This document shows, piece after piece, positions 35,141 through 56,111 of a DNA stretch of 64,000 nucleotides. The stretch spans positions 124,001-188,000 of the forward strand of contig NADL03000868.1 in the NCBI GenBank assembly GCA_002205965.3. The letters run 5' to 3'. A program made the position numbers and the translations under genes. Position 1 is the stretch's first letter, and each line of letters starts with the position of its first letter. The notes under the pieces were generated by a model. That model made no database searches. It worked only from the letters and a program-made list of their open reading frames with translations, and was not told where the DNA came from. The stretch comes from Kappaphycus alvarezii (lineage: Eukaryota; Rhodophyta; Florideophyceae; Gigartinales; Solieriaceae).

Positions 35141-35205
35141 AGCTTTGTACCACGGGGGAAAATTTTGGGTTACGATATGGAAGATGTGGTTGGTTGTACG
35201 GTATC

Positions 35206-35725
35206 CACGTCGCTGAGAGTGCCTTGTGCGGGACAAGTCGTCACTGGCTAACACTCAATAACTTCCCTTGCAGGACTCGCTCAATGCCAGTGAGCAGGCG
35301 TGGAGAATGACCACATTTAAGTTGAATGACGGCGCAGAGTTTATTATTCACGTTTCACGTGCTGTTACTCTAGATGGTTCAATGACTTTTCATGTTGCAC
35401 TTTTGTTTGAACACAACTTCATAGGACTCGCAACCTTAGCACCACTCGCATCAAACAGACACCAGTCATCCTGTGCAGATTGGATATATCTTCCAAGAGT
35501 AAAACACCCAAACCACTCCCCCCTCTGCAGCCTGATGATATCTTTCAAGCATTAGAAAACTCAAAGCGTTCCCCTTGCCCTTCATGTGGATCTTTGCTGG
35601 TGGCACAGTCTTCTCTTTTATCTGTATCAAACTACCCGGGGCTCTCCACTAGTCTGAACGAAGATACGATTTTTATCCCAGTATAAATCCTAGTTTCACC
35701 CAAGCCGAGTTTCTGATGTGAATTT
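35206..35725 (+). repeat. Inverted single copy of part of the tandem unit
   Basis: From TCCACGTCGCTGAGAGTGCC to TTTCTGATGTGAATTT this is the reverse complement of unit positions 49326-49834 in copy B, with few differences. It includes the 59-bp motif R insert that copy A lacks. It abuts the Ty3 LTR at 35726. Because it is outside the array, it serves as an outgroup for the array copies. A degenerate motif (GGGGGAAAATTTTGGG) precedes it at 35150. Confidence 0.85.
35268..35555 (+). other. 95-codon ORF conserved with the tandem units
   Basis: The frame begins MQDSLNASEQAWRMTTFKLN and includes FHVALLFEHNFIGLATLAPL. It is the same ORF as in the units at 43655-44020, 49489-49776 and 55267-55554 (minus strand), with only two changes in the first 65 residues. 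The last 30 codons are translated from the inserted motif R, so they are not original. The compact hydrophobic/polar pattern could be a small domain remnant; I recognise no family. Confidence 0.35.
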
Positions 35726-36446
35726 TGATAGGGGTAAATCGGCGGGGGAAGAGATCTTCAGAACCAATTACCCTGAGAAGGAGGTGTTGCGAGCGACAAA
35801 ATTGCTGCCGTGGTATTGTTGAATGAACAAAAGGGAGTGTATATAGAAGAGAGTTGAGGGTGCTAAAAGCAAGTATAAAAGGGGCAGGGTCTACCACCGA
35901 CGCTCTGCGACTAGCGTAAGAAAAAGTTTTCTTGGGTCTGAAGTTGACTCTCAACTTCCTACTACTCGGGACTTGGCTTGAAGTGTCGGCCAACTTGCTT
36001 CACCTCCACTAAAGGAAGCAGTTTACTCGGCTTATATAGACTTTTGGCTACCCCAAAAGTCTCCAACAAACATACTAATAACCATAAAATGTATTCACGG
36101 TAATCGTGTGAACCAGAGAGACTATTAGAAGATATTTCCTCAAGGTAAATATCTAGGTGCCATACCCATGCCAGCCACCCATCGGCCAGGGGTGGGAATT
36201 GATGTGGCCATTATATAGACCTTTCAGAGCTACTTGTAGTATCACCCACAACCTGGAACTGTACTGACATCTACTATGACAGCGTGTCCTAAAATGAAAA
36301 AAATCAACCGATGAATTTGCCACACTCACCCAAATTAAAAATATCTTGCAAATTCAAAAACTGTAAAAATATCTTCCCAATTCCGATACTGTATACAATC
36401 ATGGTCCTCATCTAGATTTTTTTCGTGTGCGAATTTGCGCACATCA
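35726..36446 (-). repeat. 3' LTR of the Ty3 element
   Basis: TGATAG...CACATCA termini (TGATGTG...CTATCA in element orientation), 721 bp. On the minus strand TATATAAG (36031-36038) is a plausible core promoter; a second TATA-like word lies at the AAGTATAAAAGG block. It defines the family of LTR remnants seen elsewhere in the window. Confidence 0.9.
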
Positions 36447-36517
36447 CGCCCTCTCGCTCAAGACGAACGTCCCGACTCGTCACTGTTCTTCTTCTGCTTC
36501 CGTTAGTGTTCGCTGTC

Positions 36518-36943
36518 TTATTGATAAAATGTATGGTCTTCAAACGGGTACGGATGCAACTGATTACCAATATGATGCTCTAAAAAGTAGGTTCGCATTA
36601 CTGGTACCTCACTTTGTAGCATAGCCTCATATATTGGTTTGATCACATCGAGGTGGGGTTGAATACATTCTTCTTCCGTGACTCTTCCGAATCTTCCAAG
36701 AGTGAAAAAATATATGTGATATGCAAACTCTTCTGGAAGATGCCGGAGGAATGGATGCCGATAAGAAAAGAAGACGCGCATCATCAAGAACGAATCTTCG
36801 TAAGATAAGTGCGGTCCATGTAGCGCCCTAAAACATAAACAGATGCTTATCATGAAATAAGAAATGACCTGCGCAGTTCGCATCCTCGGAGATATTGCGC
36901 AGCCAAAAAGATAATCTTCTTCTTCCGACTGTATGCTGTGCAT
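36518..36943 (-). CDS. Accessory ORF X2 of the Ty3 element, unknown family
   Basis: The 141-codon ORF lies between integrase and the 3' LTR. It starts MHSIQSEEEDYLFGC and shares with X1 (37114-37490) the series ICLCFRALHGP (ICLCFRTLNGP in X1), then ED--L--RV-FS, EF---IY, GR-G-V and I-PIYE. The two are clearly paralogous, diverged beyond half of positions yet both open. The content (many aromatic residues, balanced charges, no signal peptide or transmembrane helix) suggests a soluble globular domain, not an envelope protein, despite the env-like position. Upstream, 36944-37109 in another frame encodes a Gly/Pro/Arg/Ser-rich linker that starts 5 bp after the X1 stop. TTTATGTTTTAG before GGCGCTACATGG could be a 3' splice site. 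No family recognised. Confidence 0.55.
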   Translation of the reverse strand: MHSIQSEEEDYLFGCAISPRMRTAQVISYFMISICLCFRALHGPHLSYEDSFLMMRVFFSYRHPFLRHLPEEFAYHIYFFTLGRFGRVTEEECIQPHLDVIKPIYEAMLQSEVPVMRTYFLEHHIGNQLHPYPFEDHTFYQ

Positions 36944-37113
36944 GGTTGTGAAGCAGAGCTAGAGATGAAGTTGTGGTGGACGGTCCCGATGAATGGCCGC
37001 GACCAGCTCCTGACGTACTGGGACCTGCACGAGGTCCTCTCGGGGGACGACCGGAACCTCTTCTGGGCGGGTTGTTGTCTCCTGAAGGTCCTCCTCTGGT
37101 CATCATCACTGCT

Positions 37114-37797
37114 TCAGGAGGATCCTCGCCGCCTCAACGTTCCCAATTTGTGGCGGAGAAACGTAAGGTTCCCATAGAGGATACGGGACCAGCCTGTATT
37201 CCATATCCGGGGTAAGGCGTAACCTCTCAGTCGCACATCTTGGTTGTTCTTGAGAAATACGTAAATTGGACGGATAATATTCAGATACGTTTGCGACAAG
37301 TCTCCAGCAGCTACCATTCCATATCTTCCTATAGAGTAATGATATATTACCTCCACAAACTCTGGACCTGCTTCCGTGAACCTTCCGTTTTGGAATGAAA
37401 ATAGAACTCTTATTAATAGTCGGAAATCTTCTTCAGGTAGCAATGGTCCGTTCAACGTACGAAAACATAGGCATATATTAATGTAGAAATGGATGATTAC
37501 GTGGAGTTCGTAGTAGTCCCGCGTAATCGAGATGATCCATTCCCAGGCCCTTTTTCCTCCCATAGGAATCATTCTATAGTTAAAGATGAGTATGCCCCGT
37601 GGTTGCGCATAGTCCTGTGTGAGAAGGAATTCTTCAGGCCTCTGATGGTAAGGGACCAGACGACGTGCATGGATGGCCCTCCTTGATCTCTTCCCTGAGC
37701 TTGAACAGAGCTGATAGTGCGGGTGTCTTTCCTCCGTGACGATGCAAGGGTTCGAGTACTTGGTTTGGAAGGCCGGCCACTTCACAGCCTGCTGCAT
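37114..37797 (-). CDS. Integrase GPY/F module fused in frame to accessory domain X1
   Basis: The first 55 or so residues (AVKWPAFQTKYSNPCIVTEE, RHPHYQLCSSSGKRSRRAIH, ARRLVPYHQRP) are the GPY/F-type C-terminal module of a fungal Gypsy integrase, thought to help DNA binding and multimerisation. The same open frame continues through about 50 linker residues into X1 (YINICLCFRTLNGPLLPEED to the C-terminus RRRGSS), the paralogue of X2. X1 could thus be made as a C-terminal extension of Pol and later cleaved, or be a separate gene that happens to be in phase. The upstream integrase core is in a different frame. Confidence 0.6.
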   Translation of the reverse strand: MQQAVKWPAFQTKYSNPCIVTEERHPHYQLCSSSGKRSRRAIHARRLVPYHQRPEEFLLTQDYAQPRGILIFNYRMIPMGGKRAWEWIISITRDYYELHVIIHFYINICLCFRTLNGPLLPEEDFRLLIRVLFSFQNGRFTEAGPEFVEVIYHYSIGRYGMVAAGDLSQTYLNIIRPIYVFLKNNQDVRLRGYALPRIWNTGWSRILYGNLTFLRHKLGTLRRRGSS

Positions 37798-37811
37798 TGC
37801 TTTTCCATGTA

Positions 37812-38234
37812 CTACAAGTACTTTAGAGCCAACTGAAAAGGTTCTGACTGCAGGTTCTGCATCCTTATTTCTTGTCTTGTTAGCGCGCGGTGTGATCTCC
37901 AGCCTTCGGTGGCCAGTAGTTCAACTTCCCTACTCTCTTCATCGATAATATTTGTTTCCATGTCTCTCTGTAACATTCTAGGAGCCCTTCCGTACATTAG
38001 CTCGAATGGTGAGCGTCCATTTCTTCCTCTTCTTCGACGATAGCCGTATAACACTTTTGGTAAGGCATCTTCCCACTGGATTTCATTCTCCGACATAGTT
38101 TTCGATATTGCTCGTTTGATGGTTCCAACCATCCTCTCCGCTTTCCCGTTGGACATAGGAGCGTATGCGAGAACGGTCTTCAGCTGAATCCCTTTCTCTT
38201 CCAAAAACGAAGCAGTGAAGTTGCAGTAAAACAA
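37812..38234 (-). pseudogene. Ty3 integrase, C-terminal part of the catalytic core
   Basis: It contains YAPMSNGKAERMVGTIKRAI, with the third catalytic residue (Glu) of the D-D-E triad, then YGYRRRRGRNGRSPFELMYG, a standard Gypsy integrase motif. It is separated by a one-base shift from the part bearing the two Asp residues, which overlaps it at 38180-38234. Confidence 0.85.
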
Positions 38235-39055
38235 AGGGCGTTATCCGAGATGATCCTTTTTGGAAGACCAAACGGTTCAATTATTTCTTTTTCGATGAAT
38301 CTCAGTACCACCTCAGCATTTGCCTCCTCGACTGCAACTGCTATTGGCCATCCAGTAAGATGTTCCACCCCTATAAGGAGATATTTGTTTCCGGAAGAAG
38401 TTTCCTTGAACGGGCCCGCGAAGTCAATTGAGAAGGTTTCAAAGAGACCGGAAACTGGAAAACTTAGAGTTGTCTTATACTTCCGTATTGGAGTGAATTT
38501 TTGGCAGTTGTCGCAGCTTTTCACGAAATTATAGACGTCCTTATGGATACCGGGCCACCAGAATCTCTCAGTTACGAATTTTTTGGTTGTTTCGAGATCC
38601 CAATGCCCTAGCTCATCATGGAAAGTCCTCAAGATCTTCATTCTTTCTTTCAAAGGGGCCACTAGTCGGGGACCGGCTTTAGTGTGCCGGAAGAGTTTCC
38701 CATTCCACAATGTAAAAGCCTTTTGATTCCTGCGTACCCAATTTCTGTGTTCAAGATCAACCTTTCTCATTTCTAGTCCATCGAGGAATTTGATCAGTCC
38801 GTGAATATTAGCTTCGTACTCGTTATCGTTCGGCAACTGCAACTCGGCGACTCCGACGATGTCCTCCGAAGCTTTTTCATTTGGAATCAGTGCGTCCCTC
38901 AAGCGGGATAGGTAATCGGCAGGCTGATTATTGCGTCCGGGTCTATACACAATTTCAAACCGATATTCTGCGAAAATGTCGAGCCATCGGGCCAAGCGGT
39001 GATGTACATCCTTCTTTTGGAATGCTGTTTTAAGTGCCTGGTGATCAGTTATCAA
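38180..39055 (-). pseudogene. Ty3 RNase H end, HHCC zinc finger and integrase core
   Basis: The frame starts in RNase H (TDHQALKTAF and RFEIVYRPGRNNQPADYLSR), passes a linker, then the integrase N-terminal zinc finger (H-x5-H in FHDELGH, C-x2-C in SCDNC). The core follows with the first Asp in FSIDFAGPF and the second in RIISDNAL. The catalytic residues are all present. The frame is lost shortly before the Glu-containing segment. Together with the adjoining pieces it makes a full-length integrase when the frame breaks are ignored. Confidence 0.9.
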
Positions 39056-39059
39056 GACA

Positions 39060-39306
39060 AATTTCTCGAGTGATAAAAGGTATACGCGAAACTTTTTCAG
39101 CGCGAAGACGACAGCTAGCGCTTCTTTCTCGCAGACTGAGTATCTCTTTCCGCATCATTCAGAGTTCGGCTTGCGAATTGAACAGGGTGTAGTCTTCCGT
39201 TTTCATCTTTTTGGGACAAAACGGCACCCAAAGACCGTTCTGAGGCATCTGTCTCCACAACGAATGGTCTCTTGAAATCTGGGTACATGAGAACTGGGGG
39301 ACACAT
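39060..39306 (-). pseudogene. Ty3 RNase H, N-terminal part
   Basis: PFVVETDASERSLGAVLSQK carries the first catalytic Asp of the Gypsy RNase H (E-T-D-A-S), followed by FASRTLNDAE. The frame terminates early (RKKR) by a shift; the next piece begins at 39055. Confidence 0.85.
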
Positions 39307-40036
39307 AGCTTATCTTTAAGCTCCTAAATGCAGTTTCCATTTCCTTGTTCCAGTAAAATTTTCCGTTCTTCGTAGTGCTGGCATGTAACGGTGCTGCAGT
39401 CTTGGCGAAATCTTTGATAAATCTTCTGTAATATGAGGCCAGTCCTAAGAAGCTTCGGACCTCCGTCTTTGAAGCGGGCCTTGGTGCCAACTTTATTTTT
39501 TTCGTTTTCTCTGGATCCACTCTAATTCCCTCTTGGTCGACGATATGACCGAGTAATTGGATAGAAGTTTTCGCAAAGAAGCATTTGCTCAACTTAATTT
39601 TCAAGCTATACTCCGATATCCTCTCCACAACTGTCTTGACGTGCGAGATGTGCTGATCCAATGTTTCTGAGAATATGACGACATCATCGATATAGACTCT
39701 TGCGAATGGAAGTCCTTTCAAAACCTCGTTCATCATTCTTTGGAATGTAGCTGGTGCATTCATGAGACCAAAAGGCATCACTTCGAACCTGAACGTACCG
39801 GCTTTGCTGGTAAAGGTTGTTTTTTCCTTACATTTTTCATCCAATGGAATCTGCCAATAGCCAGTGTAAAGGTCAATTGAGGTGAAATATCTCCCATCCT
39901 TCAGGTCCTCGAGGATCTCCTCCATGTTCGGAATCGGAAATCGATCGGGTATCATTCTCTGGTTCAGTTGTCGTAATCGACGCAAAAACGCAGCTTTCCA
40001 TCCTTCTTTGGTGCGACCACAACTGGAAACGACCAT
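39203..40036 (-). pseudogene. Ty3 reverse transcriptase
   Basis: It carries fingers and palm motifs in order: RFPIPNMEEILEDL, FTSIDLYTGYWQIPL, FRFEVMPFGLMNAPATFQRM, then VYIDDVVIFS with the catalytic Y-x-D-D, LLGHIVDQEGIRVDP and FLGLASYYRRFIKDF. The first catalytic Asp (SIDL) is present. The start of RT lies in the preceding frame (39964-40554) and the end runs out of frame near 39290. This is the best preserved part of the element. Confidence 0.92.
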
Positions 40037-40554
40037 GGGGATGAAACTGGTCGAATAATATCATTTTTCAGCATACTTGTAACATTTTCTGAGATAAATT
40101 GGTCATATTTTGGCGGTTGACGTCTAGGCTTGTGGTAAATCGGTTGAGTGTCGGTAAGTTCGAACGAGTGAGTAACCGGTACACTTGCTTGTCTTAAATC
40201 TGAAACGCTCCATGCAATTACTTCGGAAGATGTTAACATGTCGGATATTTTCAGTGAGGCGGCGGGAAGGTGCTGCACTTTTCCTTGGATTTCTGCCATT
40301 TGGCGCCCTTTTTCTTCTTGATCCTCAACCTCAATATTTTGAAGGACCTCTTCCGTCGTGCTCACATCTTCATATATGGAATTCGACGTATTCTTATTTT
40401 CTTTGCAAAGATAATCTTCTTTCATGCTCCGAATTCTGTCCTTTGATTCGATATCATCGCAAAAAGAAACACATTCGGGTTTCAAACTTATCCTAGAATT
40501 CCAGTCGTCATCTGTTTCAAACCCAGAATCATAATCGTCCCATGCCATGTTCAT
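39964..40554 (-). pseudogene. Ty3 pol segment: linker and RT N-terminus
   Basis: An acidic linker (DDYDSGFETDDDWN onward) precedes HSFELTDTQPIYHKPRRQPP and SSPWSFPVVVAPKKDGKLRF, the first RT motif of Ty3/Gypsy. The ATG at 40554 overlaps the stop of the protease frame as TAATG, so reinitiation is formally possible, but a simple one-base error would also join the frames. Confidence 0.8.
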
Positions 40555-41150
40555 TACCCCCGAGGGTACCCTTTTCCACTTCCGAAAGTGTTAGTTGGTT
40601 CCGAATCTTCGCTGTCATAGCTAGAAGTGAAATCTTCACTGTCCGTTTCTTTTAAATCTTCAGGATGTGTGCTTTTGTCGAAATCCAGGGGCATCTTCAC
40701 GGTTCTGCCGTCAATATTAACTGAAACCATTTGGTTGCCCAAGTCAATGCATGTCCCTAGTCTTCCATGTAGGGCAGCCAATGATTGCATCGAAAGGGAG
40801 ATCAGGCATGACAAGAAAGTCTCATCAACTTTAGAGTCCCCAAAGAACACGGAAACCTTGTCAACAGTGCCCATGCATTTTGAGACGGTTCCATCCGCCA
40901 CAGTTATTCTTCGAGTCGTTGGAATGATTTCGAGACCTAATCTGTCACCAAAGTTTCTGAAATAAGGTTTGAACAGCGCCCGAATCGAAAGAGCTTGGGT
41001 TTTCATTCCCAATACTTTGACTGGTACCAGCTTAAGACGTCTTGGTGCTGTCGAGGCCGATTGAAGAAACAGTTTCTTACCCTTAGCGGACTTATTAGAC
41101 CTGATAATTTTTTTGAGTTCTTTTCTCGCATCCTCTGCGTCGCCCCTCAA
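40554..41150 (-). pseudogene. Ty3 aspartic protease, active site out of frame
   Basis: The open frame has RLGLEIIPTTRRITVADGTV and CMGTVDKVSVFFGDSKV, typical of the retropepsin-like domain of fungal Gypsy elements. The catalytic D-S-G is not in this frame: at about 40985-40990 the neighbouring frame reads FDSGAVQTLFQKL, and near 40800 another reads VMPDLPFDAIIGCP. Each excursion begins and ends at a short homopolymer that is one base too short or too long. So either the protease was recently killed by four indels that happen to compensate, or the sequence carries base-calling errors. Confidence 0.75.
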
Positions 41151-41164
41151 AAGTTGACCAAACG

Positions 41165-41602
41165 TTATCCAGTTGGGGCCGATGCAAGCTCAGCCACCAA
41201 ATTGTACCTCTTCACATACTCTAGTACGTCCTTAGAGATACTCTTAACTTTCTTACTCTTTTTCGTCTTCTTGGCCGGAGTGACTCCCACTCCTGGAACA
41301 ACTTGATCAGACCTCTTGGTTCGAGGAGGTACAGGTGCTGGGATATGCTCCAGCATTCCATAATCTAGCCTAGGTTTCTTCGATAAAATGTTCCCTTCCC
41401 CATCCCTTTTTGTCACATTGACTTGACTAATCTCTTCAGCGATGGATACGTTACCGGCATCCGTCAACCTTTGATCCCTTCTATTTTGTAAGATTTTCAC
41501 CTCTGGTCCTGACTCACTCCTTGCTTCCGATAAATTTGCTCTTCTGTTGTCTTTAGACCAGCAGTTACTTTCATGATGCCATATCGACCGCACTTTGCAC
41601 AA
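41165..41602 (-). pseudogene. Ty3 gag-pol junction: second zinc knuckle and basic linker
   Basis: It begins within the second CCHC knuckle (HHESNCWSK; the first half, CAKCGRYG, is in the adjacent frame) and ends with a Lys-rich stretch, TPAKKTKKSKKVKSI, before a stop near 41165. The basic stretch may be a nucleic-acid binding or nuclear-localisation segment. Confidence 0.6.
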
Positions 41603-41805
41603 CGAGTGTTTCTATGTGGATTATCAGGACACCTGTTTGCAAAGTGTCCAGGCTTGTGACAGTAAGAACAGACTTCTGCGGCTTAGGGGCCCCAGACTGG
41701 TTCTTCTTAATGGTAATAGTAAGGCTTTCCAACTGCGAGGTTATCATGTCAAGTCGATTATCGAATCGGGTTTCCAACCTTTCTTCCAAGTTTTTGACAT
41801 CCTCC
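41571..41805 (-). pseudogene. Ty3 Gag C-terminus with CCHC zinc knuckle
   Basis: CSYCHKPGHFANRC (C-x2-C-x4-H-x4-C) is a canonical retroelement knuckle, followed 12 residues on by a second one split by a frameshift. Before it is a coiled-coil-like stretch (KNLEERLETRFDNRLDMITS). Three frames are needed to read the region, and a TAG at 41829 separates it from the rest of Gag. Confidence 0.8.
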
Positions 41806-41828
41806 TGACAGATTCTAATGCCGCTGCA

Positions 41829-42335
41829 CTAGTAGTCGGCCTTTGATAATTTTTTCAGGTATACGATAGACATAGACGTGCGGGTTTCCCTCGGTACCTC
41901 ACTCAGTGACTGAAACGTCTCCGAATTTTTGACAAATTCTACTATGGTACCCTTCAGTTCATCAAAAGTGTGAGGGCCCTTGATGAGGAGGAAATCGGAG
42001 AGCCGCTTATCCCCCATAGCCGCCTTACGCAGCATTCCGTACTTGGCTTGGGCGTTGAACCCAGACTTTTCATAAAGATCACACAAGTACACCAATGAGC
42101 TTAACAAATCGTCGAAGTTGAGCCGGGCCTCTATGGCGGTACGAATCATCTCATCTGGTTCTACCTCCTTAGCATACTCTTTCACAAGCCACTCACATAC
42201 CTCACCGAAGTTACGCCCATTCCCGTTAAGAGACCACCCGTCGATAAACTTGGACTTATATTTGTGCTTTGCGTCACCATGAAGATAGGCGAAGATACTT
42301 GCGGCCTTCTCTTCATCGCCCTTCTCTCGCATCAC
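41829..42335 (-). pseudogene. Ty3 Gag capsid-like region
   Basis: 168 codons from MMREKGDEEKAASIFAYLHG include AKHKYKSKFIDGW and VCEWLVKEYAKEVEPDEMIR, the helical pattern of Gypsy Gag (retrotransposon gag) domains. It ends in frame at TAG after KLSKADY; the same frame continues beyond (CSGIRICQEDVKN), so the stop may be a CAG to TAG change. The N-terminal start is unclear because upstream codons to the LTR lie in another frame. Confidence 0.7.
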
Positions 42336-42507
42336 AACGTTGACATATGTGTAAAGAAACTCCTCAACGTCTTAAGTCTTGCCCCCTGTGAACGTTATAC
42401 GAGCAGCGTTGAGATCCATGATTACAGAAAAGAAATCCCCCGAAGTGTTCTTTACTACTGCTCAACTCGAATACCTCGGGTGCAACCCCCTCCACAAGAG
42501 TACCAAA

Positions 42508-43229
42508 TGATAGGGGTAAATCGGCGGGGGAGGAGATCCTCAGAACCAATTACCCTGAGAAGGAGGTGTTGCGAGCGACAAAATTGCTGCCGTGGTATTG
42601 TTGAACGAACAAAAGGGAGTGTATATAGAAGAGAGTTGAGGAAGCTACAAGCAAGTATAAAAGGGGCAGGGTCTACCACCGACGCTCTGCGACTAGCGTA
42701 AGAAAAAGATTTCCTGGGTCTGAAGTTGACTCTCAACTTCCTACTACTCGGGACTTGGCTTGAAGTTGTCTGCCAACTTGCTTCACCTCCACTAAAGGAA
42801 GCAGTTTACTCGGCTTATATAGACTTTTGGCTACCCCTAAAGTCTCCAACAAACATACTAATAACCATAAAATGTATTCACGGTAATCGTGTGAACCAGA
42901 GAGACTATTAGAAGATATTTCCTCAAGGTAAATATCTAGGTGCCATACCCATGCCAGCCACCCATCGGCCAGGGGTGGGAATTGATGTGGCCATTATATA
43001 GACCTTTCAGAGCTACTTGTAGTATCACCCACAACCTGCAACTGTACTGACATCTACTATGACAGCGTGTCCTAAAATGAAAAAATCAACCGATGAATTT
43101 GCCAAACTCACCCAAATTAAAAATATCTTGCAAATTCAAAAACTGTAAAAATATCTTCCCAATTCCGATACTGTACACAATGATTGTCCTCGTCTAGATT
43201 TTTTTTCGTGTGCGAAATTACTCACATCA
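42508..43229 (-). repeat. 5' LTR of the Ty3 element
   Basis: 722 bp, direct repeat of 35726-36446, with scattered substitutions (for example GAAGAGATCTTC versus GAGGAGATCCTC) and homopolymer differences. Its right border CACATCA is followed at once by the first tandem unit. Confidence 0.9.
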
Positions 43230-43654
43230 GTGGTCTCCCCACAGCATTGTGGCCGAGTAAACATACCTTCCGCTCTCTTCGGTGCCCATAGCCCACTTCC
43301 AAATCCCCCCAGGGCCACAGTCCTCCGAAGTCTTGGCGGTGAGTACGCCCCCCATTTTCGTCGACTCTCAACCCTCCGTACTTTCGCTGAAAGGGGGAAT
43401 GTTTGGGTGTTTTATTCTTGGAAGAGTGAATCGATTTGGTTCTTTAATGTTTGAAAAGTGCTGTTCGGCTATACCCCGGTGTTGATGCACGTATTCAGGA
43501 TAATGGTAATATCACTCGTGTTCAATAAACACTTCTTGGAAGATATGTTCGACTCTAAAACTAACCTTTTTACTCTACTGAAATTATTTTGGAAATGGGC
43601 TGCTCGCATTGCATGATTGTTTAAATTCACATCAGAAACTCGGCTTGGGTGAAA

Positions 43655-44020
43655 CTAGGATTTATACTGGGATAAAATCGTATCTTCGTTCAGACTAGTG
43701 GGAGAGCCCCGGGTAGTTTGATACAGATAAAAAGAGAAGACTGTGCCACAACAAAGATCCACATGAAGGGCAAGGGGAACGCTTGAGTTTTCTAATGCTT
43801 GAAAGATATCATCAGAGGATGACTGGTGTCTGTTTGATGCGAGTGGTGCTAAGGTTGCGAGTCCTATGAAGTTGTGTTCAAACAAAAGTGCAACATGAAA
43901 AGTCATTGAACCATTTAGAGTAACAGTACGTGAAACGTGAATAATAAACTCTGCGCCGTCATTCAACTTAAATGTGGTCATTCTCCACGCCTGCTCACTG
44001 GCATTGAGCGAGTCCTGCAA
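43655..44020 (-). other. Unit ORF (MQDSLNAS), copy A
   Basis: Without the 59-bp insert the frame runs 121 codons, ending LNEDTILSQYKS, and passes through SNRHQSSSDDIFQALENS. This probably represents the longer original reading frame that the insert truncated in the other copies, though homopolymer differences also alter it. No family recognised. Confidence 0.35.
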
Positions 44021-44144
44021 GGGAAGTTATTGGATGTTAGCCAGTGACGACTTGTCCCGCACAAGGCACTCTCAGCCGCGTGGATTAAGATTGTGAGGAG
44101 GAAATATTGATAGTTATCCTGATAGTACCTGCCCATAGTTTTTC

Positions 44145-44523
44145 TCGTCTATACGATTCCATTTGATGGATTTTGAAGTAATGATTATTGTTTGAGACTT
44201 TAGGGGTAGCCAAAAGTCTAACTAAGCTGAGTAAACTGCTTCTTCTCGTGTAGATCAAGAACGGTGGCAGCTTCAAGTCAGATCCCAAATATTTAGGAAG
44301 TTGAGAGTCAGTTTCAGACCCAGGAACCGTTTTTTTATGCTGGTAACAGAGCATAACTGGAAGCCCCTGTCCCCTTATACTCACTTTTGGCCCTCCAATC
44401 GGCCTTACTCGCCTTTTTTTGTTCGCTCAACTATACTACGGTAGCATTTTTGTCGCTTGCAACACCTCCTTCTTGGGTTAATTGGATCCGATTTTCTCTT
44501 CTCTCATCTATTTATCTTTATCA
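44145..44523 (-). repeat. LTR remnant inside unit, copy A
   Basis: GAGACTTTAGGGGTAGCCAA, GAGTAAACTGCTTC, GTTGAGAGTCAGTTTCAGAC, CCCCTTATACTCAC and CTATACTACGGTAGCA match the reverse complement of the Ty3 LTR, ending TCTATTTATCTTTATCA. It is older than the neighbouring complete element. Confidence 0.7.
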
Positions 44524-44574
44524 CCCTTCTCCCAAAAAATATCTCCATCGAGTTTCGCAAGTGGGTAAAGAGGA

Positions 44575-45260
44575 ATGAAGTACAGCTTCCTTGTCTCACT
44601 AAAACCTAGTTGCTCTAATTCCGATAGCTACGGTGTCTGGTCGCGCTGTGCATTCTGTCCGTTCTCCACGTCCGTACCCCTGCCAGTCGCTGAGTGCACG
44701 ATCATGTTATCAACTACAAATCATGCCATTCAAATGGATGTATTATCGCTTTCAATATTTCGCAGCACGAAGATAGTTTTCCAAAAACTGAACCCAGAGG
44801 TATGCGACAACAGCAAGAAAGGCATATATCGATACATGTCCAATATGGTCCGTGCTCGCATCTCGAAGCCTTGTACCCTGATTCAGCCTCTGCATCAACT
44901 GTTCCAGAAAGCGCTTCATGAGGAGCAAGTATCCCGCACCTTGTGGGAGCGATCCCTAGAACACTACACTACAGTGAATTCTTCCTTAGGGCGGTGCTGG
45001 AATGGAGGATCGCTCGTGGATGGGTCACTTTGTCAGTAAAAGCTTTCCCAAGAATCAATGAAATGCTTAGGCAGACTGTAATATCTATCCTTCGCTCGAA
45101 TCAACGTCAGGCGTTCCCTTTACGCCATTTTCCCGACCCCGCCATTGCCCCCGACCTCTTAAAGTCCCACCGCGACCCCATTGCCCCCGCCGCTACCCGC
45201 TCGATCTATTTCAGCTTAGAGCCTTCATCGGCGGTAGCAGACAACACTGTCGTCATGTAA
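44575..45260 (+). pseudogene. Unclassified coding remnant, copy A
   Basis: Two overlapping frames compete. One (44575-45039) is open for 154 codons. The other (44694-45260) reads QHEDSFPKTEPRGMRQQQER, has one TGA, then continues HYSEFFLRAVLEWRIARGWV and AFPRINEMLRQTVISILRSN. The second looks more protein-like. Its TGA is present in all three units, so it predates the duplication. Family unknown. Confidence 0.35.
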
Positions 45261-45598
45261 GTCGCACTTGTGGACGCCAGGAAAAAGGGCCCACAGCTCA
45301 GCCAAGACTTAGCCGATTCGAAATGTTGGAAACTCTTGAGTAATTGGGAAAGTCGGGGAATGAAAACATCACTTAAAAACTCTTTCCAGAGATATCTCTG
45401 GGGAGTATGAAGCTTTTGAATACACCATTTTGCAGCTGTATTGATCTGCGCAGTGATCCGAAGAGGCGTAACGGCAATATCCAAAAACGCTTTTGACCAT
45501 AATTTCAAAAAACGGTCCCTTCTGTAGGAGAGAGGTCCTCTCCACAAACTCTTATCTTTTAATTCCCTGTGAGTTTTCAAAAGCAGCTCTTCCCCCAA
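45206..45598 (-). other. Unrecognised minus-strand ORF, copy A
   Basis: 130 codons with balanced composition (ELKDKSLWRGPLSYRRDRFL; CIQKLHTPQRYLWKEFLSDV). The frame is open for 149 codons in copy B (50964-51413) but broken in copy C. It overlaps the end of the preceding remnant on the other strand. It could be the true coding strand of this part or chance. Confidence 0.25.
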
Positions 45599-45960
45599 TT
45601 TCTCTCACGAGCAAAAACATGAATGAAATGAATTTTCCCCATGAATCCAAATTCACTGTGCAACTACATTTCTATTTTTTCTTGAGAATTTCGGTCCGCT
45701 CTTTGCGAAAAAGGTATCTTTCGACTCGTGATCTGCTTCGTCCTCCAACTTCAGTTCCGATATTTTATCAAGTCGAGTTTTAGTTATTGCCCTGATTGCA
45801 TCCAAATTCAAAGCCGAGGGATTGACGCACATATTTCATTTCGTCCAAGACCCTGAAACGTTCCGAAGACGTCGCCCTATTTAAAGTTTGAAATCGACGT
45901 CGTTGATGAAAACCCCCGGCGCCAAATACTCCATCGCCTCACCCCTTTTGTGTCCTCAAC

Positions 45961-46587
45961 ATGACCGATCTCCGCCCGTCCCTCACGATCACCAGGTCAT
46001 CCTGAGGCGGCCGCTTACTCAACTCCCTGGCCCTGGTGGCCAATGGACCAACCAATTAAGATGACTACCGTAGGAAAATGGACCGGGAATGCGTTCAAGA
46101 TTGGGTCCGCCTGCACTGCTTCGGAAGGCAGAAGATGCAGAGGAGGAGGTAGAAGAGAGGAGGAGAGGAGTAGAAGAAGAGGAGATAGAAGAAGAGGAGA
46201 TAGAGAAGAGGAGATAGAAGAAGAGGACGGAGAGGAGGCGGAAGAGGAGTATGGAGAGGAGGACTGGGTGGAACCGTGGAAGCCACTAGTGTACAACGGT
46301 GAGGGTTCACTGTGGAGAACAAAGGGGAAACTGAGGAAGTAACCTTTATTTATGACTCTTCTGGCAAGGATGATGAGGAGATTGAAGAGAAGGACGAGGA
46401 AGATGAGGTGGAGGGAGAAATGGAAAGTGCCGGGATAGTGGGGAGGGGGCCGGAAAGTATGGGCTAGGTGGTCCCGATTCTTGAGTGGTATGGTAAAGTC
46501 CGTGCGGTACTTAATCCGAGGCACGCTGTCGCGACCGTAATTTACAACCCAGCATGTCTGCTGCGCGGCCTTGAGCAGGCTTTTTAG
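45961..46587 (+). pseudogene. Acidic-tail family copy 4 (unit A)
   Basis: From ATG 45961: MTDLRPSLTITRSS, a TGA, LLNSLALVANGPTN and DDYRRKMDRECVQDW, then the 15-bp minisatellite (46131-46227) coding Glu-rich repeats, broken in frame here by deletions. WVEPWKPLVYNGEG and an acidic stretch follow, with a TAG where copy C has CAG. The tail is YGKVRAVLNPRHAVATVIYN, which belongs to the GGWHP-domain family. The ORF thus joins two different repeat families. Confidence 0.5.
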
Positions 46588-46630
46588 GTAAATGTAAAAG
46601 GTACTGCTGGTCACCCTGTAGGATCTTGCG

Positions 46631-46805
46631 GGCTACAACCGACCATAAGTTTCAAATATTAAATCACCCTACATTTCACCCATCTTGGAAGGTATATCCG
46701 AGCTATCCTCAAGTTTCCAAGACAACCATAATCGACTCAAAAAGGGATGCCGATACAATAATGAGGGATGTACTGCGCTCCATAAAAGGCCACCTCAAGA
46801 ATGCT
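46631..46805. repeat. Motif L (inverted) joined to motif R block, copy A
   Basis: GGGCTACAACCGACCATAAG, TTTCAAATATTAAATCACCC and TACATTTCACCC (inverse of motif L) run straight into CTTGGAAGGTATATCCGAGC and AAGACAACCATAATCGACTC (motif R block). A degenerate third motif lies at 46969-47010 (GGGGAAAGGTTTAATTGC). Confidence 0.6.
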
Positions 46806-47596
46806 CTTTCATTGCAGCATCTGTTCAGGAAGTGACCACATGTCCGTATATTAAAACATTCAAATGTCCCCCTTCATCAGAACATTGAACTAGGGGCATT
46901 TGGTCCATGAAAAATAGAAACGATATTATTCACCGGCACCTCCTCAAGCCCAATTCTGAAATAGGGGAAAGGTTTAATTGCTTCACTCTTGCCAGATATA
47001 TTCGATTCTATCCCAATGATAAAATCGAAACACAGGTCAGATGGACACGAAATTCAAGTCACGCAGTTGAAGTACCCGCTACAGTAGTCCCCAGGAAAAG
47101 CTCATGGTCCGCTTCGTACCTCTTATTTAGTTACCGTTGAAAGCCTCTGGTACCCCACCTCATACTAGAAGCTTTTAACGGCAACTATTTGGCATTAGCT
47201 GAAATCAAGTCGGTTGAGAAATAATCCAGAAAAGTTGTCGCATAGGGAGACAAAATTCTTCCAGTGCAACAGTCTTTGTTAATTTTTTTTTATTTTGTGC
47301 AAGTAACGTTACATAGGTCCCCGTCCCGTCCCTGTCCTGTTTCCGTTCCGATCATAATTTTTTCAATTTGATTCCATATCGGAACAAGCAATCCACAAGA
47401 GTCAGATCAAGACCCTGAATTGCACCGCTAACCGATTCCTATAAATGATATCCAACCGATCGAAGCGCTGGCGACATCAACATACAATCAAAAAATCTTC
47501 CTTCAATCCTCCCAACCACCGCAGGTCAATCCCTATTCCAATAAAACCAACAATAGTCAGACGAAAATCGGTTTCCACTACCTGTCGAAACTCGAA

Positions 47597-48792
47597 ATGC
47601 CTAGGCGATCACATGGCACGACAGCGGGGGCTGGAGGGCAGGGATCCAGGAACGATGAGCGGGTTGAATGGGCAGATCGAAGCGGACGGGCTAGGAGTGC
47701 TGAATGGGTTCAGCGGGGCGAACTGGCGGAGAAGGCTGCATGGGTTGAGCTGAGTGGGCGATCTGAGAGGAGTGAATGGGTTGGGCTGAGGGGGCGGGAG
47801 GAGCGGGTAGAATGGGGAGAACGGGTTGAACGGGGCGAACTGGCGAAGAGGACTGAGTGGGTTGAACGGGGCGAGCGGGCTGATAGGGCTGAGCGAAATG
47901 GGTGGACCGACCGAAACGGGCGACCAAAGGGCGCTGAGCAGGCTGATCAGGGTGACCAGGGTGATCGGGCTGTCCAGAATTGGCGGACTGGGCGGACTGG
48001 GCGACCGGAGGGTGCTGAGCGGACTGATCAGGGTGACCACGGTGACCGGGCTACTCAGAATTGGCGCACTGGGAGGATTGGGCAGAATGAACACATGCAG
48101 CGGAGGGTCAGTTCGCCTACCGGAGGCTCCCAGTACAGCCAAGGATACACCTCTCATTCTAGCGATGATGAGAAGTACTACGATTGCTTTGATCGAGCGA
48201 GCGATAAGGGCAGGATTATCGTGAGTGGAGGATCAATCGGGGAGGTGTTCCAGAAATTTCCGACGGGTCACAGTCCAGCGAAGGTCGGCAGCCCAACATG
48301 GATCAGCGGTCCGAATGGGACGGATCGCCCCGTATGTCGCAGTTGCCGGAGTGTGACAGCGATGCGAATAGCTTCGGAAAGTTGAATGGACGATCTAGGA
48401 GGCCGAATTTCAGCAGCAACGGAGGGTACGAGAATGCGACGGATAGTGGCACGGAGACGGGGGAAAGGTCGAGGGGTTCGAGCCATGGCAGATGCAGCCG
48501 GTATGCTTGTGGAAAGGATAGTCGAAACATGGGCCGGAGGCGGGCCAAGGGTGGGAAAAAGGCCCAAGAAAGGGTGCAAACGAATCGGATTGAGGACTGT
48601 TTGGTGGAGGGCACTCTGAGGCAGCGGATGAAGAACGGCGAGCGCGACGGCACAGAGAGGAACGCTGGGTATGTGCAGAACAATATTGTCGGAGGCGGGG
48701 CGGTGGTGCACGGTGAGGTGATTCAAGAGATGGTGAACAAAGGGAGTGGTGGGCATCGCGGAAGCCGTGGCAACTTTGCAAGGCGTCGATAA
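47597..48792 (+). pseudogene. R/E/W/G-rich repeat ORF, copy A, one-base frameshift
   Basis: Same gene as 53375-54571, but at about 48243 copy A has GGGGAG where copy B has GGGGAAG. This moves the reading into another frame and truncates the product at 262 residues. The downstream part continues in the restored frame from 48298 to 48792 and is otherwise identical. A TATAAAT word sits about 155 bp before the ATG. Confidence 0.65.
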
Positions 48793-49488
48793 AAGAAAAA
48801 GGGGAACTATGCCTGAGCTGGCTGCAACTAGTCCCGAGGAGAACGGAATATAGGGTTTGGGTTGCTACTTTGACAACTACATGCTGCAGTAGCCGTCTCT
48901 TCTAACGCTGTCTGTCTGTTGTGTGGTCTCCCCACAGCATTGTAGGCCGAGTAAACATACCTTCCGCTCTCTTCGGTGCCCATAGCCCACTTCCAAATCC
49001 CCCCAGGGCCACAGTCCTCCGAAGTCTGGCGGTGAGTACGCCCCCATTTTCCGTCGACTCTCAACCCTCCGTACTTTCGCTGAAAGGGGGAATGTTTGGG
49101 TGTTTTATTCTTGGAAGAGTGAATCGATTTGGTTCTTTAATGTTTGAAAAGTGCTGTTCGGCTATACCCCGGTGTATGCTAGGCGTATTCAGGATAATGG
49201 GTAATATCACTCGTGTTCAATAAACACTTCTTGGAAGATATGTTCGACTCTAAAACTAACCTTTTTTACTCTACTGAAATTATTTTGGAAATGGGCTGCT
49301 CGCATTGCATGATTGTTTAAATTCACATCAGAAACTCGGCTTGGGTGAAACTAGGATTTATACTGGGATAAAAATCGTATCTTCGTTCAGACTAGTGGAG
49401 AGCCCCGGGTAGTTTGATACAGATAAAAGAGAAGACTGTGCCACCAACAAAGATCCACATGAAGGGCAAGGGGAACGCTTTGAGTTTT

Positions 49489-49776
49489 CTAATGCTTGAA
49501 AGATATCATCAGGCTGCAGAGGGGGGAGTGGTTTGGGTGTTTTACTCTTGGAAGATATATCCAATCTGCACAGGATGACTGGTGTCTGTTTGATGCGAGT
49601 GGTGCTAAGGTTGCGAGTCCTATGAAGTTGTGTTCAAACAAAAGTGCAACATGAAAAGTCATTGAACCATTTAGAGTAACAGTACGTGAAACGTGAATAA
49701 TAAACTCTGCGCCGTCATTCAACTTAAATGTGGTCATTCTCCACGCCTGCTCACTGGCATTGAGCGAGTCCTGCAA
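49489..49776 (-). other. Unit ORF (MQDSLNAS), copy B, truncated by the 59-bp insert
   Basis: 95 codons; after SNRHQSS the reading runs into the inserted motif R (CADWIYLPRVKHPNHSPLCS) and stops. Confidence 0.35.
49513..49571 (+). repeat. 59-bp solo motif R insert, copy B
   Basis: GCTGCAGAGGGGGGAGTGGT, TTGGGTGTTTTACTCTTGGA, AGATATATCCAATCTGCAC. It is present at the same place in copy C (55291-55349) and in the inverted copy at 35473-35531, and cleanly absent from copy A, where CATCAG is joined to AGGATGAC. Confidence 0.85.
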
Positions 49777-49901
49777 GGGAAGTTATTGGATGTTAGCCAG
49801 TGACGACTTGTCCCGCACAAGGCACTCTCAGCCGCGTGGATTAAGATTGTGAGGAGGAAATATTGATAGTTATCCTGATAGTACCTGCCCATAGTTTTTC
49901 T

Positions 49902-50281
49902 CGTCTATACGATTCCATTTGATGGATTTTGAAGTAATGATTATGTTTGTTTGAGACTTTAGGGGTAGCCAAAAGTCTAACTAAGCTGAGTAAACTGCTT
50001 CTTCTCGTGTAGATCAAGAACGGTGGCAGCTTCAAGTCAGATCCCAAATATTTAGGAAGTTGAGAGTCAGTTTCAGACCCAGGAACCGTTTTTTTATGCT
50101 GGTAACAGAGCATAACTGGAAGCCCCTGTCCCCTTATACTCACTTTTGGCCCTCCAATCGGCCTTACTCGCCTTTTTTGTTCGCTCAACTATACTACGGT
50201 AGCATTTTTGTCGCTTGCAACACCTCCTTCTTGGGTTAATTGGATCCGATTTTCTCTTCTCTCATCTATTTATCTTTATCA
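49902..50281 (-). repeat. LTR remnant inside unit, copy B
   Basis: Counterpart of 44145-44523, differing by a few single-base indels. Confidence 0.7.
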
Positions 50282-50332
50282 CCCTTCTCCCAAAAAATAT
50301 CTCCATCGAGTTTCGCAAGTGGGTAAAGAGGA

Positions 50333-51018
50333 ATGAAGTACAGCTTCCTTGTCTCACTAAAACCTAGTTGCTCTAATTCCGATAGCTACGGTGTCTGGTC
50401 GCGCTGTGCATTCTGTCCGTTCTCCACGTCCGTACCCCTGCCAGTCGCTGAGTGCACGATCATGTTATCAACTACAAATCATGCCATTCAAATGGATGTA
50501 TTATCGCTTTCAATATTTCGCAGCACGAAGATAGTTTTCCAAAAACTGAACCCAGAGGTATGCGACAACAGCAAGAAAGGCATATATCGATACATGTCCA
50601 ATATGGTCCGTGCTCGCATCTCGAAGCCTTGTACCCTGATTCAGCCTCTGCATCAACTGTTCCAGAAAGCGCTTCATGAGGAGCAAGTATCCCGCACCTT
50701 GTGGGAGCGATCCCTAGAACACTACACTACAGTGAATTCTTCCTTAGGGCGGTGCTGGAATGGAGGATCGCTCGTGGATGGGTCACTTTGTCAGTAAAAG
50801 CTTTCCCAAGAATCAATGAAATGCTTAGGCAGACTGTAATATCTATCCTTCGCTCGAATCAACGTCAGGCGTTCCCTTTACGCCATTTTCCCGACCCCGC
50901 CATTGCCCCCGACCTCTTAAAGTCCCACCGCGACCCCATTGCCCCCGCCGCTACCCGCTCGATCTATTTCAGCTTAGAGCCTTCATCGGCGGTAGCAGAC
51001 AACACTGTCGTCATGTAA
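50333..51018 (+). pseudogene. Unclassified coding remnant, copy B
   Basis: Identical in translation to the remnant of copy A, with the shared TGA at 50677-50679 inside the frame 50452-51018. The DNA change needed to open it is a single transition (CGA to TGA is possible). Confidence 0.35.
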
Positions 51019-51413
51019 GTCGCACTTGTGGACGCCAGGAAAAAGGGCCCACAGCTCAGCCAAGACTTAGCCGATTCGAAATGTTGGAAACTCTTGAGTA
51101 ATTGGGAAAGTCGGGGAATGAAAACATCACTTAAAAACTCTTTCCAGAGATATCTCTGGGGAGTATGAAGCTTTTGAATACACCATTTTGCAGCTGTATT
51201 GATCTGCGCAGTGATCCGAAGAGGCGTAACGGCAATATCCAAAAACGCTTTTGACCATAATTTCAAAAAACGGTCCCTTCTGTAGGAGAGAGGTCCTCTC
51301 CACAAACTCTTATCTTTTAATTCCCTGTGAGTTTTCAAAAGCAGCTCTTCCCCAATTTCTCTCACGAGCAAAAACATGAATGAAATGAATTTTCCCCATG
51401 AATCCAAATTCAC
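50964..51413 (-). other. Unrecognised minus-strand ORF, copy B (149 codons)
   Basis: It begins MNLDSWGKFISFMFLLVREI and is the longest form of this frame in the array. The composition is protein-like, but copies A and C are interrupted by homopolymer differences near 45595 and 57130. Confidence 0.25.
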
Positions 51414-51717
51414 TGTGCAACTACATTTCTATTTTTTCTTGAGAATTTCGGTCCGCTCTTTGCGAAAAAGGTATCTTTCGACTCGTGATCTGCTTCGTCC
51501 TCCAACTTCAGTTCCGATATTTTATCAAGTCGAGTTTTAGTTATTGCCCTGATTGCATCCAAATTCAAAGCCGAGGGATTGACGCACATATTTCATTTCG
51601 TCCAAGACCCTGAAACGTTCCGAAGACGTCGCCCTATTTAAAGTTTGAAATCGACGTCGTTGATGAAAACCCCCGGCGCCAAATACTCCATCGCCTCACC
51701 CCTTTTGTGTCCTCAAC

Positions 51718-52365
51718 ATGACCGATCTCCGCCCGTCCCTCACGATCACCAGGTCATCCTGAGGCGGCCGCTTACTCAACTCCCTGGCCCTGGTGGCCAA
51801 TGGACCAACCAATTAAGATGACTACCGTAGGAAAATGGACCGGGAATGCGTTCAAGATTGGGTCCGCCTGCACTGCTTCGGAAGGCAGAAGATGCAGAGG
51901 AGGAGGTAGAAGAGGAGGAGGTAGAAGAAGAGAGTAGAGAAGAGGAGGTAGAAGAAGAGGAGATAGAAGAAGAGAGATAGAAGAAGAGGAGATAGAAGAA
52001 GAGGACGGAGAGGAGGCGGAAGAGGAGTATGGAGAGGAGGACTGGGTGGAACCGTGGAAGCCACTAGTGTACAACGGTGAGGGTTCACTGTGGAGAACAA
52101 AGGGGAAACTGAGGAAGTAACCTTTATTTATGACTCTTCTGGCAAGGATGATGAGGAGATTGAAGAGAAGGACGAGGAAGATGAGGTGGAGGGAGAAATG
52201 GAAAGTGCCGGGATAGTGGGGAGGGGGCCGGAAAGTATGGGCTAGGTGGTCCCGATTCTTGAGTGGTATGGTAAAGTCCGTGCGGTACTTAATCCGAGGC
52301 ACGCTGTCGCGACCGTAATTTACAACCCAGCATGTCTGCTGCGCGGCCTTGAGCAGGCTTTTTAG
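51718..52365 (+). pseudogene. Acidic-tail family copy 5 (unit B)
   Basis: Same organisation as copy 4, with TGA after the N-terminal motif, the minisatellite (51893-52005) disrupted by deletions, and TAG at the position where copy C has CAG (GTATGGGCTAGG). Confidence 0.5.
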
Positions 52366-52408
52366 GTAAATGTAAAAGGTACTGCTGGTCACCCTGTAGG
52401 ATCTTGCG

Positions 52409-52583
52409 GGCTACAACCGACCATAAGTTTCAAATATTAAATCACCCTACATTTCACCCATCTTGGAAGGTATATCCGAGCTATCCTCAAGTTTCCAAGA
52501 CAACCATAATCGACTCAAAAAGGGATGCCGATACAATAATGAGGGATGTACTGCGCTCCATAAAAGGCCACCTCAAGAATGCT
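52409..52583. repeat. Motif L (inverted) joined to motif R block, copy B
   Basis: Counterpart of 46631-46805. Confidence 0.6.
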
Positions 52584-53217
52584 CTTCATTGCAGCATCTG
52601 TTCAGGAAGTGACCACATGTCCGTATATTAAAACATTCAAATGTCCCCCCTTCATCAGAACATTGAACTAGGGGCATTTGGTCCATGAAAAATAGAAACG
52701 ATATTATTCACCGGCACCTCCTCAAGCCCAATTCTGAAATAGGGGAAAGGTTTAATTGCTTCACTCTTGCCAGATATATTCGATTCTATCCCAATGATAA
52801 AATCGAAACACAGGTCAGATGGACACGAAATTCAAGTCACGCAGTTGAAGTACCCGCTACAGTAGTCCCCAGGAAAAGCTCATGGTCCGCTTCGTACCTC
52901 TTATTTAGTTACCGTTGAAAGCCTCTGGTACCCCACCTCATACTAGAAGCTTTTAACGGCAACTATTTGGCATTAGCTGAAATCAAGTCGGTTGAGAAAT
53001 AATCCAGAAAAGTTGTCGCATAGGGAGACAAAATTCTTCCAGTGCAACAGTCTTTGTTAATTTTTTTTTATTTTGTGCAAGTAACGTTACATAGGTCCCC
53101 GTCCCGTCCCTGTCCTGTTTCCGTTCCGATCATAATTTTTTCAATTTGATTCCATATCGGAACAAGCAATCCACAAGAGTGAGATCAAGACTCTGAATTG
53201 CACCGCTAACCGATTCC

Positions 53218-53224
53218 TATAAAT
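53218..53224 (+). promoter_or_regulatory. TATA-like box before the R/E/W-rich ORF
   Basis: TATAAAT lies 157 bp before ATG 53375 and is preserved in copies A and C. The intervening leader is A- and C-rich, with few ATGs apart from one at 53223 in another frame. Confidence 0.35.
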
Positions 53225-53374
53225 GATATCCAACCGATCGAAGCGCTGGCGACATCAACATACAATCAAAAAATCTTCCTTCAATCCTCCCAACCACCGC
53301 AGGTCAATCCCTATTCCAATAAAACCAACAATAGTCAGACGAAAATCGGTTTCCACTACCTGTCGAAACTCGAA

Positions 53375-54571
53375 ATGCCTAGGCGATCACATGGCACGAC
53401 AGCGGGGGCTGGAGGGCAGGGATCCAGGAACGATGAGCGGGTTGAATGGGCAGATCGAAGCGGACGGGCTAGGAGTGCTGAATGGGTTCAGCGGGGCGAA
53501 CTGGCGGAGAAGGCTGCATGGGTTGAGCTGAGTGGGCGATCTGAGAGGAGTGAATGGGTTGGGCTGAGGGGGCGGGAGGAGCGGGTAGAATGGGGAGAAC
53601 GGGTTGAACGGGGCGAACTGGCGAAGAGGACTGAGTGGGTTGAACGGGGCGAGCGGGCTGATAGGGCTGAGCGAAATGGGTGGACCGACCGAAACGGGCG
53701 ACCAAAGGGCGCTGAGCAGGCTGATCAGGGTGACCAGGGTGATCGGGCTGTCCAGAATTGGCGGACTGGGCGGACTGGGCGACCGGAGGGTGCTGAGCGG
53801 ACTGATCAGGGTGACCACGGTGACCGGGCTACTCAGAATTGGCGCACTGGGAGGATTGGGCAGAATGAACACATGCAGCGGAGGGTCAGTTCGCCTACCG
53901 GAGGCTCCCAGTACAGCCAAGGATACACCTCTCATTCTAGCGATGATGAGAAGTACTACGATTGCTTTGATCGAGCGAGCGATAAGGGCAGGATTATCGT
54001 GAGTGGAGGATCAATCGGGGAAGGTGTTCCAGAAATTTCCGACGGGTCACAGTCCAGCGAAGGTCGGCAGCCCAACATGGATCAGCGGTCCGAATGGGAC
54101 GGATCGCCCCGTATGTCGCAGTTGCCGGAGTGTGACAGCGATGCGAATAGCTTCGGAAAGTTGAATGGACGATCTAGGAGGCCGAATTTCAGCAGCAACG
54201 GAGGGTACGAGAATGCGACGGATAGTGGCACGGAGACGGGGGAAAGGTCGAGGGGTTCGAGCCATGGCAGATGCAGCCGGTATGCTTGTGGAAAGGATAG
54301 TCGAAACATGGGCCGGAGGCGGGCCAAGGGTGGGAAAAAGGCCCAAGAAAGGGTGCAAACGAATCGGATTGAGGACTGTTTGGTGGAGGGCACTCTGAGG
54401 CAGCGGATGAAGAACGGCGAGCGCGACGGCACAGAGAGGAACGCTGGGTATGTGCAGAACAATATTGTCGGAGGCGGGGCGGTGGTGCACGGTGAGGTGA
54501 TTCAAGAGATGGTGAACAAAGGGAGTGGTGGGCATCGCGGAAGCCGTGGCAACTTTGCAAGGCGTCGATAA
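53375..54571 (+). CDS. 398-residue Arg/Glu/Trp/Gly-rich repeat protein, unknown function
   Basis: It runs ATG 53375 to TAA 54571. The N-terminal 190 residues are repeats: RVEWADR/ERVEWGERVERGELA/RTEWVERGERADRAE units with regularly placed Trp, then two 30-residue repeats (GRPKGAEQADQGDQGDRAVQ and GRPEGAERTDQGDHGDRATQ, each followed by NWRTGR). The C-terminal half is Ser/Gly/Asn/Arg-rich and strongly hydrophilic, with a basic patch GRRRAKGGKKAQERVQTN and end SRGNFARRR. No signal peptide, transmembrane helix or known domain is seen; it is probably disordered and possibly nucleic-acid binding. Other frames of the repeat region are also open because the DNA is a G-rich minisatellite. The + frame is preferred because it stays open through the non-repetitive C-terminal half. 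A Gag-like or nucleocapsid-like role in an unclassified element is conceivable but not shown. Confidence 0.5.
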   Translation: MPRRSHGTTAGAGGQGSRNDERVEWADRSGRARSAEWVQRGELAEKAAWVELSGRSERSEWVGLRGREERVEWGERVERGELAKRTEWVERGERADRAERNGWTDRNGRPKGAEQADQGDQGDRAVQNWRTGRTGRPEGAERTDQGDHGDRATQNWRTGRIGQNEHMQRRVSSPTGGSQYSQGYTSHSSDDEKYYDCFDRASDKGRIIVSGGSIGEGVPEISDGSQSSEGRQPNMDQRSEWDGSPRMSQLPECDSDANSFGKLNGRSRRPNFSSNGGYENATDSGTETGERSRGSSHGRCSRYACGKDSRNMGRRRAKGGKKAQERVQTNRIEDCLVEGTLRQRMKNGERDGTERNAGYVQNNIVGGGAVVHGEVIQEMVNKGSGGHRGSRGNFARRR

Positions 54572-55266
54572 AAGAAAAAGGGGACTATGCCTGAGCTGGC
54601 TGCAACTAGTCCCGAGGAGAACGGAATATAGGGTTTGGGTTGCTACTTTGACAACTACATGCTGCAGTAGCCGTCTCTTCTAACGCTGTCTGTCTGTTGT
54701 GTGGTCTCCCCACAGCATTGTAGGCCGAGTAAACATACCTTCCGCTCTCTTCGGTGCCCATAGCCCACTTCCAAATCCCCCCAGGGCCACAGTCCTCCGA
54801 AGTCTGGCGGTGAGTACGCCCCCATTTTCCGTCGACTCTCAACCCTCCGTACTTTCGCTGAAAGGGGGAATGTTTGGGTGTTTTATTCTTGGAAGAGTGA
54901 ATCGATTTGGTTCTTTAATGTTTGAAAAGTGCTGTTCGGCTATACCCCGGTGTATGCTAGGCGTATTCAGGATAATGGGTAATATCACTCGTGTTCAATA
55001 AACACTTCTTGGAAGATATGTTCGACTCTAAAACTAACCTTTTTTACTCTACTGAAATTATTTTGGAAATGGGCTGCTCGCATTGCATGATTGTTTAAAT
55101 TCACATCAGAAACTCGGCTTGGGTGAAACTAGGATTTATACTGGGATAAAAATCGTATCTTCGTTCAGACTAGTGGAGAGCCCCGGGTAGTTTGATACAG
55201 ATAAAAGAGAAGACTGTGCCACCAACAAAGATCCACATGAAGGGCAAGGGGAACGCTTTGAGTTTT

Positions 55267-56060: not shown

Positions 56061-56111
56061 CCCTTCTCCCAAAAAATATCTCCATCGAGTTTCGCAAGTG
56101 GGTAAAGAGGA

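Follow-up and report, generated by a model that had tools for sequence, protein, structure and literature searches.

In fungal Gypsy elements and chromoviruses, a chromodomain sits behind the integrase, as described in the part of PMC3248453 available to us. In the bdelloid elements Juno, Vesta and TelKA, family-specific coding sequence is placed between the integrase and the 3' LTR, and the available part of PMC5408684 presents the ORF3 products of bdelloid elements as env-like, DEDDy-like or GDSL-like. Here we describe an abundant Ty3/Gypsy family for which we conclude, with high confidence, that Pol carries a C-terminal extension of about 356 residues behind the integrase C-terminal module. 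This extension consists of two copies of one domain, R1 and R2, with a linker between them.

Like the chromoviruses, the family combines a Ty3/Gypsy-type RT with an added part that continues the Pol frame beyond the integrase C-terminal module. Unlike in the chromoviruses, no Chromo match was found for this added part in Pfam, and it is built of tandem domains of about 127 residues that are predicted to be all-helical. Budding yeast Ty3 provides the best solved matches to the RT (4ol8 and 7q5b), as judged from PDB sequences: its RT in 4ol8 is the nearest solved relative (E 1.7e-47). Residues 1099-1449 of its Gag-Pol (7q5b) align with the integrase piece (E 4.7e-17), for which PFV integrase scores even better (E 7.2e-21). 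The extension, unlike these parts, has no PDB sequence match at E < 0.5. As far as the available part of PMC5408684 describes Juno, Vesta and TelKA, theirs are ORF3s, whereas the present family has a tail in the Pol frame without an env-like, DEDDy-like or GDSL-like match. Env-bearing (errantivirus-like) elements are different as well, as there is no separate third ORF here.

Results

The element and its surroundings

The window, i.e. the whole 64-kb stretch of DNA that was analysed, lies on one of the 884 contigs of a 336 Mb assembly, whose size and LTR elements indicate a eukaryote. Its minus strand contains an element that is, judged by sequence, a Ty3/Gypsy-type LTR retrotransposon, with the following features:

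42508..43230, minus strand: 5' LTR (TG...CA), 97% identical to the 3' LTR (sequence comparison)
38180..42371, minus strand: gag-like region, protease-like, RT, RNase H and integrase zinc-binding/core regions, in several frames in the window copy (Pfam; gag by position only)
37630..37836, minus strand: integrase C-terminal module, GPY/F-like (position and look)
about 37148..37590, minus strand: R1, first copy of the domain, holding X1, with one frame change near its end here (alignment)
36915..37147, minus strand: Gly/Pro/Arg-rich linker, about 78 codons (frame in through-reading copies, substitution counts)
about 36528..36914, minus strand: R2, second copy of the domain, holding X2 (alignment)
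36448..36527, minus strand: short tail, the Pol stop being placed where the longest-frame copy has it, then a purine-rich stretch (possible PPT) by the LTR (sequence)
35726..36447, minus strand: 3' LTR, 722 bp (sequence comparison)

Between the 722-bp LTRs, the Pfam matches follow the Gypsy order of RVT_1, RT_RNaseH, Integrase_H2C2 and rve. The first three score above the cut-off; rve falls below it, as does an aspartyl protease model. The GPY/F-like stretch at the integrase C-terminus has no Pfam match, its resemblance being judged by eye, and visual inspection of the LTR ends showed no target-site duplication.

The plus strand carries three units of about 5.76-5.78 kb, arranged head to tail at 43813-59720 and 98.6-99.3% identical. 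Each of them holds a Gly/Arg/Glu-rich gag-like ORF (47432, 53210 and 58996), and a Copia RVT_2 ORF follows at 61402-62646. Both flanks of the Gypsy element, 35203-35725 and 43230-43815, match pieces of this tandem unit, one of them inverted, so that the element lies in or beside a rearranged copy of the unit. Stretches with 66-78% identity to parts of the Gypsy LTR (3970-4326, 16960-17386, 18092-18636, 44188-44523, 49891-50281 and 55669-56060) are read as probable older or sister subfamilies. A 612-aa ORF on the plus strand at 13346-15184 has a signal-peptide-like start (by eye) and repeated cysteine-rich Ephrin_rec_like modules (E 6.6e-18).

Copies of the family

The X2 protein was used as a query against the genome, which gave 5770 first-look candidates. 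Of these, 150 were scored, all with E <= 7.7e-74, so the family comprises at least 150 closely matching copies. Stretches, labelled with L and a number, were fetched in batches of 8, 20 and 20. L001 is the place of the window, L005 is the same place as L020 and L024 the same as L002, while L008 lies elsewhere and is 99.2% identical to L007. Without these four, 45 copies including the window were available, 44 of which span the whole R1-linker-R2 stretch. Other copies do carry the X1/X2 region; they were retrieved by searching for that region, and copies lacking the extension could therefore not show up.

One tail of Pol rather than two ORFs

The initial annotation had placed two ORFs, X1 and X2, between the integrase and the 3' LTR, with a Gly/Pro/Arg-rich stretch between them and X1 in frame with the integrase C-terminal module. 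This layout was recovered in our analysis, on the minus strand and with the 3' LTR at 36447-35726. The two are, however, domains of one Pol extension and not separate ORFs: in 15 of the 44 copies, R1, linker and R2 are stop-free in a single frame, which rules out two independent ORFs, and in the other 29 they are not. Because the sample was enriched for long frames (13 of the 20 stretches of one batch had been pre-listed with open frames of at least 500 aa), this proportion is no frequency estimate. In 14 of the 15 through-reading copies, the same frame continues upstream over 77 to 1002 codons and reaches at least the end of the integrase; the remaining one, L042, has only 13 codons upstream. 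The longest frame, found in one copy, covers 1373 open codons from RT to the end of the tail. A single frame that runs from the integrase end through R1, linker and R2 and ends by the LTR argues for a C-terminal extension of Pol. Expression in this form had been offered as a possibility, and it is supported. The limits given to X1 and X2 were too narrow (R1 covers about 37590-37148 and R2 about 36914-36528), and the frame read for some 30 residues at the end of X1 and some 20 at the start of X2 is not the one used in the through-reading copies.

An env-like third ORF had been doubted from the beginning, and it was rejected in view of a frame continuous with Pol in 14 of the 44 copies, of the hydropathy and of an LTR close behind R2. 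The highest 19-residue Kyte-Doolittle means are 1.28 and 1.44, below the usual threshold of 1.6 for a membrane segment, and of the 49 rows compared (duplicates included), 29 show the 722-bp LTR type, starting 77-81 bases after R2.

The end of the tail and two types of LTR

In the longest-frame copy, 33 bases separate the Pol stop from the LTR. Where the tail has an indel, the stop falls at another place, and the window's own X2 frame terminates earlier, at 36518. A looser search finds the LTR 70 to 90 bases after R2 in 33 of the 49 rows, and eight stretches end 92 to 213 bases past R2, with no LTR seen there. In the case of L004, L007, L008, L014, L015, L016, L019 and L025, which extend 972 to 1492 bases past R2, a different sequence was found. 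It opens with TG directly after the same purine-rich stretch and joins the known LTR about 1290 bases on, in the three that reach far enough. From this we infer that a second type of LTR exists, longer and with a different U3, rather than an insert after Pol; an exchange of U3 between subfamilies is likely. Within the longer type, up to 190 codons in a row are free of stops, a length that differs from copy to copy, so that a further ORF could exist there. Parts of it match the window at 16410-17241. Ahead of either LTR type, the Pol tail ends at the same purine-rich stretch.

Frame breaks in this assembly

It had been claimed that X1 and X2 stayed open while gag and pol broke. No such contrast was observed, as R1, linker and R2 carry indels too: compared with the reference copy L009, the window has 1 indel in R1, 1 in the linker, 2 in R2 and 9 in RT-RNaseH-IN. 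When 18 copies with at least 2800 RT-RNaseH-IN bases were compared, 8 showed at most 2 substitutions but four to nine indels against the reference, which itself differs from other copies by indels. The single-base events amounted to 231 deletions and 38 insertions in a tally that omits L009, L001, L008 and L024 and keeps L005, so that one place enters twice. Deletions climbed steeply with homopolymer length, with 79 over 2109 one-base runs and 15 over 6 runs of at least six bases (copies pooled). Indels that are deletion-heavy and linked to homopolymers are the signature of long-read assembly error. The small indels that split R1-linker-R2 in the window thus look mostly like assembly errors, and the broken gag and pol are weak evidence of decay. 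Older copies, e.g. L021, L023 and L033, also bear stops through substitution, and real mutations may be among the frame breaks. Frame breaks of a noisy assembly can make several imagined ORFs from one protein, and the deletion-heavy homopolymer pattern calls for caution whenever a pseudogene is called here.

R1 and R2 as diverged copies, very probably under selection

The gap-free alignment of R1 and R2 covers 127 residues, 36% of which are identical. Their local score of 230 compares with a highest score of 59 among 2000 shuffles, which rules out a chance resemblance and bears out the duplication proposed for X1 and X2, whose shared motifs do come in the same order. Across the three codon positions, identity amounts to 0.47, 0.64 and 0.39; the synonymous sites have reached saturation (pS 0.78), with dN at 0.63. 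R1 and R2 are two ancient, diverged copies of one domain of about 127 residues. A frame that has stayed gap-free through so much divergence points to its maintenance by selection.

To describe selection on the present copies, distinct substitutions were counted in 44 copies against L009, dropping sites within 4 columns of an indel and omitting L009 itself, L001, L005, L024 and L008. In R1, 35 of 65 substitutions are synonymous (null mean 18.4, ratio 0.34), in R2 30 of 45 (null mean 12.6, ratio 0.19) and in RT-RNaseH-IN 81 of 180 (null mean 50.2, ratio 0.47), with 0 of 5000 draws as high in each of the three. The integrase C-terminal module has 12 of 26 (null mean 7.1, ratio 0.44, draw share 0.027). 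For the linker, the same count gave no sign of purifying selection (6 of 27, null mean 6.7, ratio 1.14, draw share 0.69). The R2 ratio is biased low, since similarity to the X2 protein decided the ranking of the copies, an effect that touches R1 much less; and as the copies share ancestry, the random draws are no strict test. The dN/dS-type check that had been suggested for X1 rules out neutral decay of R1, whose ratio is similar to that of RT-RNaseH-IN. Altogether, R1 and R2 are very probably under purifying selection.

Relatives and predicted fold

The earlier view of X1 and X2 as unknown is in line with our searches, as Pfam, NCBIfam, PHROGs, PDB sequences, IMG/VR and GTDB contigs yielded no relative. 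In Pfam, nothing exceeded the cut-off for X1, X2 or their relatives, the only rows being PF21947 (E 0.15) and DUF4886 (E 0.16). The domain would represent a family without a match in these libraries, and its novelty, which is provisional, applies to them. The predicted fold is all-helical, at low-to-modest confidence (pLDDT 51 and 63).

Discussion

We propose that the Pol extension, with its duplicated and selected domain, works as a paired protein-contact module, most likely for tethering; taken as a whole, the chances of this statement seem to us slightly below even. The extension would remain on the integrase or be released by the element's protease, and R1, linker and R2 would act as a pair. 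The likeliest role would be to tether the integration complex to host chromatin or to a nuclear partner, as chromodomains do in chromoviruses. Tethering is the likeliest single guess because of the place of the extension behind the integrase, where chromoviruses carry their chromodomain; by this analogy, we name it tentatively as the specific job. A further step would be that an undescribed protein family, as a tandem pair fixed at the integrase C-terminus of a highly multiplied Gypsy lineage, has replaced the chromodomain for targeting. This is possible but somewhat unlikely in our opinion and, if true, would amount to a novel mode of site selection by retroelements.

The next likeliest role of the extension would be helping the integrase to assemble. 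In its strict form, as a multimerisation/intasome-assembly module in which R1 would pack against R2, or both against partner subunits, without any choice of target, this explanation is rather unlikely, and nothing specific counted against it: two predicted helical domains and an unselected linker would fit pairwise packing, and the frame runs on from the integrase C-terminus. The same continuity with the integrase, present in several copies, speaks against an extension that the protease frees as a separate accessory protein, e.g. to counter host silencing or to take part in the assembly of particles. If IN and R1 were cut apart, it would indeed become a free protein, and retroelements can have family-specific products after the integrase, such as the ORF3s in the available part of PMC5408684, but we regard this outcome as distinctly unlikely.

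The domain could also have been captured from a host gene and then duplicated, so as to mimic or compete with a host protein. Acquisition of domains is known, e.g. by orchid Ty3/Gypsy elements, which have gained an m6A RNA demethylase domain (in the part of PMC9289625 available to us). Within Pfam, NCBIfam and PDB sequences, no cellular relative turned up, and we hold such a capture to be improbable. That X1/X2 represent a divergent form of a known integrase subdomain or of a chromodomain, as their place would suggest, is most improbable given the lack of any Pfam match above the cut-off and the predicted helical fold, as opposed to the largely beta fold of chromodomains.

Coming back to the paired contact module, additions to the integrase C-terminus can set where retroelements land and hence how genomes are shaped. 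A domain that is selected, duplicated and unclassified, sitting at this place of a family that has at least 150 close copies, would be a new handle on targeting.
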